Source: Spelaeicoccus albus
GTDB lineage: Bacteria > Actinomycetota > Actinomycetes > Actinomycetales > Brevibacteriaceae
Assembly: GCF_013409065.1 (NCBI RefSeq)
Contig: NZ_JACBZP010000001.1
Coordinates: 1,922,001 to 1,986,000, forward strand
Length of the DNA: 64,000 bases
Direction: 5' to 3'
The translations under genes and the position numbers were made by a program. Below, piece after piece: positions 18,081-23,529 of this stretch. A model generated the notes under the pieces. The model saw only the letters and a list, made by a program, of their open reading frames with translations, was not told the origin of the DNA and ran no database searches. Every line of letters starts with the position of its first letter. Position 1 is the stretch's first letter.

Positions 18081-18113
18081 TTTTTTCAACGAAAATGCGG
18101 AGTAAATACGGGC
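18081..18113 (-). repeat. Dispersed repeat, copy A (inverted)
   Basis: Read on the minus strand: CCCGTATTTACTCCGCATTT then TCGTTGAAAAAA. It aligns with copies B (18730) and C (20145) over about 33 bp with a few mismatches. The block-like form (CCCCGTA-TTTA-CCCCGTA) is not coding and has no hairpin. Confidence 0.6.
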
Positions 18114-18729: not shown

Positions 18730-18770
18730 ACCCCGTATTTACCCCGTACTTTGGTTGAAAAATGGCCCGT
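18730..18770 (+). repeat. Dispersed repeat, copy B
   Basis: ACCCCGTATTTACCCCGTAC followed by TTTGGTTGAAAAATGGCCCG. Its first 22 bp are identical to copy C. It lies 290 bp before the CHAT start, and with copy C it brackets the CHAT gene as a direct repeat. Confidence 0.7.
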
Positions 18771-19020
18771 ATTTGGCGCAAACCGATGCAACGCGCTGAC
18801 CCCGCCCCATCCGCGTAATTCGGGGAGAATTGACGGTTCATGCACACAGCTTACGGCTATCGAAAAATGCTTAAACCATATCTGTTCAGTGTGGGTTCGA
18901 GTCGTGCTTAGGCAAGGCTGTGACCAACTCAGGCTATTTGATCCGCTTACGTCAGTGCTGACCGGTACTGTATCCACGACCGCCACGACTGACGTGGGTA
19001 TGAAGTTGAGGAGGCACGCC

Positions 19021-20109
19021 ATGACTCGCAGTGACCAGATTAAATCAGAGATAGGACGACTGGATGGCTCGATCGCAGCCCTGAGGAAGGAACTGGCGAG
19101 GCAGCAAAAGAAAGCCGACGACGCGGCAGCGAAGGCTCGCCATGAGCGTGACCGAGCACATAAGACGAAAAGTGATTCGACTAAACGTTCCGCAATGGCG
19201 ACGGCGGAAAGGAAAGACAAGGAAGCATCCACGGGGATGAAGAAGGTTGGCGACATCAGCGTCAAAATCGCTGCGAAAGAGAAGTCGGTCAATGCTAAGC
19301 GGACCTCGCTGGCCGCGGCTGAACGGAGCGAGCAGAGAACGAAGGACCACGAGGACGATCGTCGCCGGCGGAAGGAGAAGAGCCATGCGCAGGAGATCGC
19401 CAGGTTGAGTCATCCTCCCGCGCGCGTGCGCTTCGTGGAGGTGCAACCACCGGACCCCGAACCATTGCGGGTGCTCTATCTCACGGCAAATCCACACGCC
19501 ACCGAGACCACTGTAGAGCACCCGGATGGGACGGTTGAGACGAACGGCGTCTGGCTTCGGGTTGACCAGGAAGTCCGTAAGGTCAACCAGGCGCTAAAGA
19601 AGTCGAAGTTTCGGGATCTGGTGACCGTCGAGCATCTGCCCGCTGCTACGGGCCAGGACCTGATGGACGGCCTGAACGATCATCGCCCGCATGTTGTCCA
19701 TTTCTCGGGTCATGCGTCTGAGCTGGGCGTCCTGCTGGAGGACGACGAAGGATCCCGGGACGGTAACGGGATGGAGTTTGCGCTTTTGGCGCGTGTCCTG
19801 GGGGCGACTGACGAGCCGCCACGCTTAGTTGTCTTGAACGCCTGTGAAAGTCTTGAAGGGGCCGGTGACCTCTTGAGGACCGTGCCGACCATCATTGGAA
19901 TGTCGGAATCGATTAGCGACCTTGCTGCCATGAACTTCGCCACTCAGTTCTATGCCGCCATCGCCTCCGCACAATCAGTCGCCTCGGCGGTCGAACAAGC
20001 GAAGACGCAAATGCAGATGGCGATGCTTGAAGACTTCGATCTACCTGAAATCCGCACACGGGAGGGTGTGGACGGGCACTCCCTCGTGCTGGTCAATCCT
20101 TCTGAATGA
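19021..20109 (+). CDS. Coiled-coil CHAT-domain (caspase-like) protein
   Basis: 362 aa from ATG 19021, with GAGGAGGC 5-7 nt upstream. Residues 1-130 are Lys/Arg/Glu/Ala-rich and predicted coiled coil. Residues about 148-360 form a CHAT domain: LRVLYLTANP, then VDQEVRKVNQAL, then HVVHFSGHASELG with the likely catalytic His231, and LVVLNACESLEGAG with Cys275. IIGMSESISDLAAMNFATQF follows as in CHAT families. CHAT proteins are clan CD cysteine proteases; characterised bacterial ones act in defence (bacterial gasdermin activation, Craspase). No partner (gasdermin, TPR-CHAT, nuclease) is visible next to it. It sits alone between direct repeats in gene-poor DNA, which suggests horizontal acquisition. 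Function unproven. Confidence 0.8.
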   Translation: MTRSDQIKSEIGRLDGSIAALRKELARQQKKADDAAAKARHERDRAHKTKSDSTKRSAMATAERKDKEASTGMKKVGDISVKIAAKEKSVNAKRTSLAAAERSEQRTKDHEDDRRRRKEKSHAQEIARLSHPPARVRFVEVQPPDPEPLRVLYLTANPHATETTVEHPDGTVETNGVWLRVDQEVRKVNQALKKSKFRDLVTVEHLPAATGQDLMDGLNDHRPHVVHFSGHASELGVLLEDDEGSRDGNGMEFALLARVLGATDEPPRLVVLNACESLEGAGDLLRTVPTIIGMSESISDLAAMNFATQFYAAIASAQSVASAVEQAKTQMQMAMLEDFDLPEIRTREGVDGHSLVLVNPSE

Positions 20110-20144: not shown

Positions 20145-20185
20145 ACCCCGTATTTACCCCGTACTTAAATTGAAAAGCCGGCCGC
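20145..20185 (+). repeat. Dispersed repeat, copy C
   Basis: ACCCCGTATTTACCCCGTAC then TTAAATTGAAAAGCCGGCCG. Identical to copy B for 22 bp and similar beyond (TTGAAAA shared). It is 36 bp after the CHAT stop and about 110 bp before the tRNA remnant. Confidence 0.7.
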
Positions 20186-20295
20186 ATCTGGAGCAAAACG
20201 TTGTAAAGCAGCAAACCACTCCATGCGCGCCGTTGCAAGGAAGTAGGGGGCTAACGCAAGCCGCAAACGAACGGCACAAAATGCCTGATCCAGAA

Positions 20296-20329
20296 CAGAA
20301 GGTTGGGGGTTCGAATCCCTCCAGGGGCC
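20296..20329 (+). repeat. tRNA 3'-end fragment, probable attachment-site remnant
   Basis: CAGAAGGTTGGGGGTTCGAA then TCCCTCCAGGGGCC: a full T-arm (GGGGG/TTCGAAT/CCCTC) with the 3' acceptor strand, as in actinobacterial tRNA-Arg genes. The 5' half (a GCCCCTG acceptor strand, D-arm and anticodon stem) is absent upstream, so this is not a functional tRNA. Integrases that target the 3' end of a tRNA leave exactly this kind of duplicate at the distal end of an island. Confidence 0.65.
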
Positions 20330-22080: not shown

Positions 22081-22135
22081 GAGTGGTGGCGAATGGTGGC
22101 AAAATCGCCGATTTTGCCACCATTCGCCACCACTC
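22081..22135. repeat. 55-bp near-perfect palindrome (REP-like)
   Basis: Arms of 27 bp, GAGTGGTGGCGAATGGTGGC-AAAATCG and its exact complement, with a single C at the centre. It follows the TetR stop (22055), between genes that converge here, and ends exactly where the IS110-family element begins. The right-arm segment CCATTCGCCACCACTC recurs at 23486-23501 beyond the element. It could act as a bidirectional terminator or be a REP-type element. Confidence 0.8.
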
Positions 22136-22408
22136 CTTTACTGGTGTGTGGCTGGCCTGGTTGTTAGCTGGCAGGCTGGTAACTGGTCTCTTGTGGCGTG
22201 TCTCTCCACCACTCGGCCCCTCTGTTGAGGTGTCTTTGCGTCGACTTGACCACGATAAGAGGCCGGTGCCGGCCTGACCGTGTCGAAGGCTTGATAGAAG
22301 TATGCCCACCCCGTATGTGGGGGTGTGGCCCTTAAAGGAGATGCCTCCACACACTATTTCCAGACCGGCACCGTGACAGTCACGAACCGTGAAGGAGACG
22401 TAACCATC
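22136..22408 (+). ncRNA. Candidate bridge RNA region of the IS110-family element
   Basis: IS110-group elements encode a bridge RNA in the non-coding segment before the recombinase. This 273-bp segment has several stem-loops, e.g. GGCCGG-TG-CCGGCC (22261-22274) and CACCCC/GGGGGTG near 22306-22326. It holds CCACCACTCGGC (22206-22217), a 12-nt match to the rebuilt insertion target, as a target guide would, and GCGTCGAC (22238-22245), complementary to GTCGACGC at the right end (23468-23475), a possible donor guide. RNA ends and fold are not determined. Confidence 0.5.
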
Positions 22409-23452
22409 ATGACTATCGTCGCAGACACCTACGATCATGTCATCGGCGTGGACACCCACGCCCGCACGCACACCTATGCCCTCGTCAACGCCCGCACCGG
22501 CGGCATTGAGAAAACGAAAACGTTCCCGACCCACCCGGCCGGACTAGCCCGAGCCCTGACCTGGATCAGCCAAGTCACCGGCACCGTGTTGATCGCCTGC
22601 GAGGGAACCGGCTCCTACGGGCGCCAACTGGCCCTCCTGCTGGCCGACGCCGGCCTGCAAGTGACCGAAGTGCGCCCACCAGCCAAAACCAGCCGAGTCG
22701 GTACCGGTAAGACCGACAACATCGACGCCCGCACCGCTGCCCGCGGGATTCTGGGCACCGACACCGACCAGCTCATCACACCCCGCGCGCCAGGCGCCCG
22801 CCACGCCCTGGCAGTGCTCCTCGCCGCCCGCCTACGCCTCGACGCCCACCGCACCCGGCTGAAAAACTCACTCACCGCGCTATGCCGCGACACCAACCTC
22901 GGCATCGACGCCCGCACCGGCATCACCAACGCTCAAATCACCACCATCGCCGCCTGGCGAACCCGAACCACCGACGACCTCGACACCACCACCTGCCGCG
23001 ACGAAGCCCGCCGCATAGCCAAAGAAATCCACCACCTCACCGCCGAACTCGCCGCCAACCGAGAACGCCTGGCCACCATCATCACCGACACCACGCCAGC
23101 CCTCCTCGACATCAACGGCGTCGGCCCCATCAACGGCGCGAAAATCCTCAACGCCTACTCCCACCACGGCCGCATCCGCACCGAAGCCGCATTCGCCAAA
23201 CTCGCCGGCACCGCCCCATTACCAGCATCCTCCGGCAACACCACCCGACACCGGCTATCACGCTACGGCGACCGGCAACTCAACTCAGCACTCCACCGCA
23301 TCGCCATGACCCGACTCGCCCACGACCCCGCCACCCAGGCATACCGCGACAAACGCACCACCCACGACGCCAGCAACCGCGACATCCACCGAAGCCTCAA
23401 ACGCTACATAGCCCGAGAAATCTACCGAAACCTCGAACACATCACCGCTTGA
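22409..23452 (+). CDS. IS110-family transposase (DEDD recombinase)
   Basis: 347 aa from ATG 22409 with GAAGGAG upstream. N-terminal RuvC-like domain: YDHVIGVDTHARTHTYALVN with the first Asp, IACEGTGSYGRQLALLLADA with Glu, and TGKTDNIDARTAARG with the Asp pair. C-terminal transposase_20 domain: LLDINGVGPINGAKILNAYS and KLAGTAPLPASSGNTTRHRL, with the Ser used in catalysis in this family probably in the PASSGN segment. Appears full length and intact, so the element may be active. The base composition is strongly C-rich at third positions, unlike its neighbours. Confidence 0.93.
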   Translation: MTIVADTYDHVIGVDTHARTHTYALVNARTGGIEKTKTFPTHPAGLARALTWISQVTGTVLIACEGTGSYGRQLALLLADAGLQVTEVRPPAKTSRVGTGKTDNIDARTAARGILGTDTDQLITPRAPGARHALAVLLAARLRLDAHRTRLKNSLTALCRDTNLGIDARTGITNAQITTIAAWRTRTTDDLDTTTCRDEARRIAKEIHHLTAELAANRERLATIITDTTPALLDINGVGPINGAKILNAYSHHGRIRTEAAFAKLAGTAPLPASSGNTTRHRLSRYGDRQLNSALHRIAMTRLAHDPATQAYRDKRTTHDASNRDIHRSLKRYIAREIYRNLEHITA

Positions 23453-23529
23453 CACAACCATAGAAGTGTCGACGCGGCGGTAAAGCCATTCGCCACCACT
23501 CGGCGGAAGGGTCAGCGGTGCCGGGCTAC

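Follow-up and report, generated by a model that had tools for sequence, protein, structure and literature searches.

A solitary gene joining a helical hairpin to a CHAT protease domain in a tRNA-Arg island of Spelaeicoccus albus, a candidate one-gene antiviral system

Gene and domain organization

The DNA analysed here, referred to as the window, is a 64,000-nt stretch of the Spelaeicoccus albus genome (contig NZ_JACBZP010000001.1, positions 1,922,001 to 1,986,000); unless another source is named, coordinates are window positions, and the features described lie on the forward strand. At 19021..20109 it carries an intact ORF of 362 amino acids plus stop, present as a single copy in the 4.03-Mb source genome and with full-length relatives in several phyla. 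On sequence reading, an AGGAGG placed 6 nt 5' of the ATG (19009..19014) is its likely ribosome-binding site; a search for a sigma-70-type promoter at the gene found none, and actinobacterial promoters differ from that type. Pfam assigns residues 172-335 to the caspase-like CHAT family (PF12770) with an E-value of 1e-14 and 55.1 bits, against a curated cut-off of 24, which bears out the initial annotation of a CHAT domain with His231 and Cys275 (codons at 19711..19713 and 19843..19845) as its catalytic pair.

The structure prediction called for at the outset gave a confident model of hairpin plus CHAT (AlphaFold2, 50-sequence alignment, modelled as a monomer; mean pLDDT 91.6, pTM 0.59), with a helix at residues 3-48, a tight turn at 49-51, a second helix at 52-129, a disordered linker at 131-147 and the CHAT domain at 148-362. 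The 130-residue charged coiled coil proposed earlier is thus present, in the refined form of an antiparallel two-helix hairpin that occupies residues 1-130 (19021..19410). The linker (19411..19461) is flexible, with pLDDT below 50 at residues 131-141, and the CHAT domain runs from 19462 to 20106. Around the turn lies the motif (K)TKSxST..S (residues 48-57, 19162..19191), which is among the best-kept parts of the hairpin, with S51 retained in 72, T54 in 66 and S57 in 67 of 88 aligned sequences.

In fold comparisons (VIA-align), the CHAT part is closest to activated SAVED-CHAT (8tl0; Z 26.3 over 199 residues, rmsd 2.3, 29% identity), and the remaining caspase-fold proteases rank below it, at Z 16 and lower; the fold matches also include the anti-sigma factor DdvA, separase and, weakly, 8eey. 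When the whole protein was searched, its N-terminus matched generic helical hairpins only (Vipp1, ESCRT-III). The window protein is a CHAT domain preceded by a two-helix coiled-coil hairpin, its catalytic pair is intact, and proteolysis is its predicted activity.

The island and its attachment site

The gene is flanked by two 65-nt direct repeats (18730..18794 and 20145..20209) that are 78% identical to each other, the right copy lying just 5' of a tRNA-Arg(ACG) 3' remnant (20293..20328). This remnant is 94% identical over 36 nt to the 3' part of an intact tRNA-Arg(ACG) 22.7 kb upstream, outside the window (source genome G000, positions 1919539-1919614), and marks the right end, attR, of a 22.7-kb island that was inserted at this tRNA gene (G000:C1:1919539 to window 20328) and of which the CHAT gene is the last gene before the right end. 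An exact 17-nt core of the repeats occurs three times genome-wide, beside the intact tRNA-Arg and on either side of the CHAT gene; the reversed pattern, used as a control, has no copies, and the exact core is absent from the loci of the other genomes compared.

The solitary position between repeats and near a tRNA remnant, remarked on in the initial annotation, is therefore real, but the repeats and the remnant do not appear to belong to the system. We considered the repeats as functional parts of it and rejected this, since the intact tRNA has a copy next to it and further copies occur at other places in the genome; repeats and remnant are best explained as attachment-site debris of the tRNA-Arg island, in which the repeats may have served as integrase arm sites. 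Diverged repeat copies were seen in the window at 18082-18112 and 18730-18901 and in the source genome at about 3298158, 3308308 and 3357289. The copy at 3357289 and window positions 18863-18901 have a second short block in common, which contains the tRNA T-loop-like GGTTCGAGTC; a second, older attachment site may possibly lie immediately left of the CHAT gene.

The immediate neighbours of the CHAT gene are sugar-catabolism genes and an insertion sequence, not defence genes. By eye, the island cargo resembles two sugar-amine catabolism clusters (SIS, PfkB-type kinase and ABC transporter; sugar transport), and reading of the ORF lists, for the part of the island that was covered, brought no integrase to light. 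The downstream insertion sequence (22325-23452) encodes, again by eye, an IS110-type transposase; next to this gene is a perfect inverted repeat of 27 nt whose loop is 1 nt (22081-22135), and a partial copy is found at the gene's other end (23486-23506).

Conservation and distribution

Relatives were gathered from plasmids, genomes and viral contigs. The family is a common one: an alignment-based scan of the genome contigs returned 217 relatives, a single-sequence scan of the same contigs none; the window protein had no match in the phage collection, although viral contigs do contain relatives. His231 and Cys275 are both retained in all 88 full-length relatives, so that loss of the pair in most of the family, which had been named as a sign against the reading, is not seen. 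Cys275 lies outside the search patterns by which relatives were collected, and the pattern of the genome scan, PH[VI]VHFSG, fixes the residues just before His231 but neither His231 nor Cys275.

The distribution is patchy, with the gene found in 5 of 60 genomes of the family and 6 of 394 of the class. In the tree, host families are mixed: the window copy clusters with sequences from Kocuria palustris, K. soli and Brevibacterium yomogidense (support 100/98), and rhizobial, plasmid and viral sequences fall among or beside the actinobacterial ones. Transfer of hairpin-CHAT genes across phyla is suggested by this pattern; we grade it no higher because the titles of a few genomes are open to doubt (metagenome bins, and one Rhodococcus record labelled Cyanobacteriota).

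Between the window gene and its nearest kin (L053), dN is 0.218 and dS 1.712, the latter near saturation. At non-synonymous sites the hairpin has changed about twice as fast as the CHAT domain (0.340 vs 0.149), which would suit a part that faces a changing trigger and is also usual for coiled coils. Some relatives are frameshifted (L064, L069). Among the variants encountered, a Mesorhizobium hairpin-CHAT protein (L066:10001-11665) has a C-terminal extension of about 195 residues, in which Pfam, run on the full 555 residues, reports nothing beyond the CHAT domain, and a staphylococcal plasmid (L210:5040-5519) carries a truncated CHAT piece that lacks the hairpin, with similar matches, likely relics, on other staphylococcal plasmids.

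Genomic neighbourhoods

Among the 99 loci analysed, 23 belong to one family of conjugative elements, recognized by a TraG/VirD4 coupling protein and by weaker matches for other transfer genes. The CHAT gene sits in 17 of these elements alone and antisense between two transfer genes, its stop codon and the convergent stop of one of them being 9-48 nt apart. Thirty related elements, found through that transfer gene, have no CHAT gene within the 1.5 kb read, and in about half of them the next transfer genes come within ~600 nt and have the same orientation. In two Cryobacterium elements, extra genes separate the CHAT gene from the transfer gene. The site, which follows a 489-aa transfer gene, looks like a cargo hotspot: a few kin elements carry other cargo at or near it, for instance genes that by eye are alkyltransferase-like (L163) or of von Willebrand type (L164). 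Two viral contigs, read as prophage inserts, show a like pattern, the gene being antisense and adjoining terminase genes in one (L136) and directly after an integrase gene in the other (L134). The insertable unit thus appears to be one gene.

For the loci outside the conjugative element family we sampled up to two genes per side at 42 loci (140 genes after very long ones were trimmed) and compared them with 130 genes picked by identical rules at arbitrary places in related genomes. At an E-value of 1e-20, 105 PADLOC models were matched by the neighbours against 3 by the control genes, a contrast that is informative even if the figure of 105 is inflated, because many models match the same few proteins (methyltransferases), and if neighbours of mobile genes are a biased sample. 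The matches include DpdE, DpdF, HamB of Hachiman, IetS, AriA of PARIS and type I methyltransferases, and named plasmid loci have reverse transcriptase, helicase, caspase, S8 peptidase, TIR, HNH and restriction-type genes nearby. No Pfam family recurs more than five times among the 140 neighbour genes, the commonest being phage integrase. The absence of a partner gene, as initially annotated, is upheld by the conjugative elements and by these neighbour genes alike; and instead of standing always beside an unrelated housekeeping operon, homologues have neighbours that vary and are rich in defence genes. The hairpin-CHAT gene needs no conserved neighbour, and conjugative elements, plasmids, prophages and islands all carry it as a cargo of one gene, often with other defence genes adjacent. 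On one Sphingomonas plasmid (L014:5407-9705), genes for a caspase, an S8 peptidase, a hairpin-CHAT protein and a TIR protein are co-directional and closely packed, a possible multi-effector operon.

The N-terminal hairpin

The PADLOC model of PDC-S66 matches residues 4-128 of the window protein with an E-value of 1.1e-12, that is, its N-terminus and not the CHAT domain, and is matched by 49 of 50 relatives; the rest of PDC-S66 is a TIR domain. Because coiled coils match each other by composition, we put this match to a profile and shuffle test. A hairpin profile built from CHAT proteins only scored 68.4 bits on a TIR protein of Niallia, 58.0 on one of a Klebsiella phage, 42.8 on an actinobacterial one (L018) and 31.7 on one of an Enterococcus phage, whereas the best of 2000 shuffles of the L018 N-terminus that preserved heptad positions reached 14 bits, and unrelated coiled-coil-like ORFs in the loci, few of them scorable, scored below zero. 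A tblastn search of plasmids with the hairpin alone gave no match, probably due to low-complexity masking. By sequence comparison, the hairpin of the CHAT proteins is homologous to the N-terminus of PDC-S66, in keeping with the early suggestion that the coiled coil is more than filler. The model of a TIR protein, whose underlying alignment included CHAT-family hairpin rows, repeats the plan of the window protein, with a helix at residues 2-42, a turn, a helix at 46-116, a linker and the TIR domain.

In the Klebsiella phage, the hairpin-TIR gene is a lone antisense insert amid tail-region genes, and in the Enterococcus phage it lies between the lysis genes and the integrase. A third architecture is a 1709-aa Streptomyces protein (L160:174-5303) with ResIII and Helicase_C domains, a trypsin-like stretch (by eye), the hairpin and then an AAA ATPase. 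Among the matches listed for 296 surveyed genomes (E-value 1e-6), each of the six positive ones has one hairpin protein.

Relationship to known systems

PDC-S66 (PADLOC PDLC05062), a one-gene defence candidate, resembles the window protein in the position of its homologous hairpin, its similar size, its linker and its lone-gene habit, and it too is carried by phages. It differs in its effector, which is TIR where the window protein has CHAT and no TIR, and it is itself a computed candidate only. SAVED-CHAT of type III CRISPR, the nearest solved CHAT protein, has SAVED as a sensor that binds a cyclic nucleotide, whereas the window protein has a helical hairpin and no CRISPR partner was seen; the corresponding PADLOC model covers only the CHAT part of the window protein (profile positions 307-451 of 498), and a SAVED sensor is not found. 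Csx29 (TPR-CHAT) of the type III-E Craspase likewise uses a CHAT protease in immunity, and its structure is the weak fold match 8eey, but it has TPR repeats and a guide-RNA complex, neither of which is found with the window protein (no TPR match in Pfam).

A CHAT protease is also listed for Borvo (PMC10952713), whose original form has BovA as its single subunit and for which a two-gene Borvo-like system of unknown mechanism is listed as well (PMC12322248). The window gene shares with Borvo the plan of a single gene with a CHAT domain, a likeness drawn from the description of Borvo (PADLOC has no family named BovA), and it could be a distant Borvo relative. Another comparison is offered by effector-associated domains (EADs), small N-terminal modules that occur on several effector types (PMC7159879). 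An EAD is proposed to draw in its effector by binding a copy of itself that sits on a different protein, whereas the hairpin occurs on one protein per genome among the matches listed. The window protein is neither a SAVED-CHAT nor Csx29-like, nor is it PDC-S66 itself. The initial statement that it matches no named system is correct only in part, given that its hairpin is that of the candidate PDC-S66 and that a one-gene CHAT system, Borvo, had already been named.

Proposed mechanism and alternatives

We consider it likely that the window gene is a stand-alone antiviral protease, a one-gene system in which the hairpin activates a swappable effector, here CHAT; its antiviral action would probably be abortive. 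The earlier proposal of a one-gene defence system is plausible on these data; defence itself we infer. Because the hairpin is constant while the effector varies, sensing, assembly or both are most likely the hairpin's task. It may hold the protein idle and sense a trigger that appears in phage infection, whereupon it would gather protomers into a dimer or filament; proximity would then activate the CHAT protease, as the activated SAVED-CHAT filament suggests, and the protease would cleave a phage protein or at least one essential host protein, so that the infected cell would stop before phage release. The TIR relatives would do likewise with an NAD-type effector. TIR domains are generally activated by assembly. 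Since SAVED-CHAT is activated in a filament (8tl0) and TIR by assembly, hairpin-driven assembly is the simplest single cause that would activate both effectors. The trigger sensed, the activation by oligomerisation and the substrate are the least certain parts of this scheme, and we infer them. Some points count against this explanation: long hairpins are a widespread type of fold, coiled coils normally change fast, and in this genome the gene has no defence genes directly beside it.

Apparent solitude could also mean that the protein is half of a split system, its partner being encoded elsewhere in the genome as substrate or trigger. Such an arrangement would fit SAVED-CHAT, which acts downstream of a type III CRISPR signal, and some relatives adjoin caspase, S8 peptidase, TIR or second CHAT genes (Sphingomonas; pTi; L133). 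We regard it as unlikely, given that in 17 conjugative elements the CHAT gene stands by itself at a shared site and that no family recurs among the adjacent genes beyond the five occurrences given above; a homotypic hairpin partner is unlikely too, as the six genomes have one hairpin protein each among the matches listed. Quite improbable, in our judgement, is a protease that serves its mobile element by tuning transfer, excluding related elements or stabilising the element. Nearly a quarter of the loci (23 of 99) do fall in a single conjugative element family, but there the gene runs antisense to the transfer operon and related elements do without it at that site, and prophages, plasmids and tRNA islands that have no conjugative machinery contain it as well; excluding competing elements would, in any case, overlap with defence.

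That the window copy is a decaying, functionless passenger of an old island would agree with the lack of an integrase in the island part read and with the frameshifted and truncated relatives, the latter on staphylococcal plasmids. The full-length ORF, the ribosome-binding site, the catalytic residues and a dN far below dS, with dS near saturation, make this very improbable. A cellular regulator or stress protease, akin to the CHAT-like proteases that cut anti-sigma factors or cohesin, might be read from the fold matches to DdvA and separase; we give it hardly any credence in view of the patchy distribution, the want of a conserved neighbourhood and the mixing of host families in the tree.

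Beyond the stand-alone antiviral protease that we prefer, we put forward more tentatively, and at somewhat less than even chances, that the hairpin forms a one-gene immune chassis not named before, sensor and oligomeriser at once, to which bacteria, conjugative elements and prophages fit interchangeable effectors (CHAT, TIR, the Streptomyces helicase-ATPase protein), with hairpin-CHAT as a distinct, widespread type of protease immunity. If so, one small helical hairpin would power two forms of killing with unrelated chemistry, by proteolysis and (presumably) by NAD chemistry, without a second protein; the CHAT version could reveal what PDC-S66 senses, and a one-gene CHAT effector would offer an easy way of finding what bacterial caspase-like proteases cut. 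As a side observation on phages, the N-terminus of phrog_15646, a PHROG family of 293 positions with function unassigned, also matches the hairpin and probably represents phage hairpin-TIR proteins.
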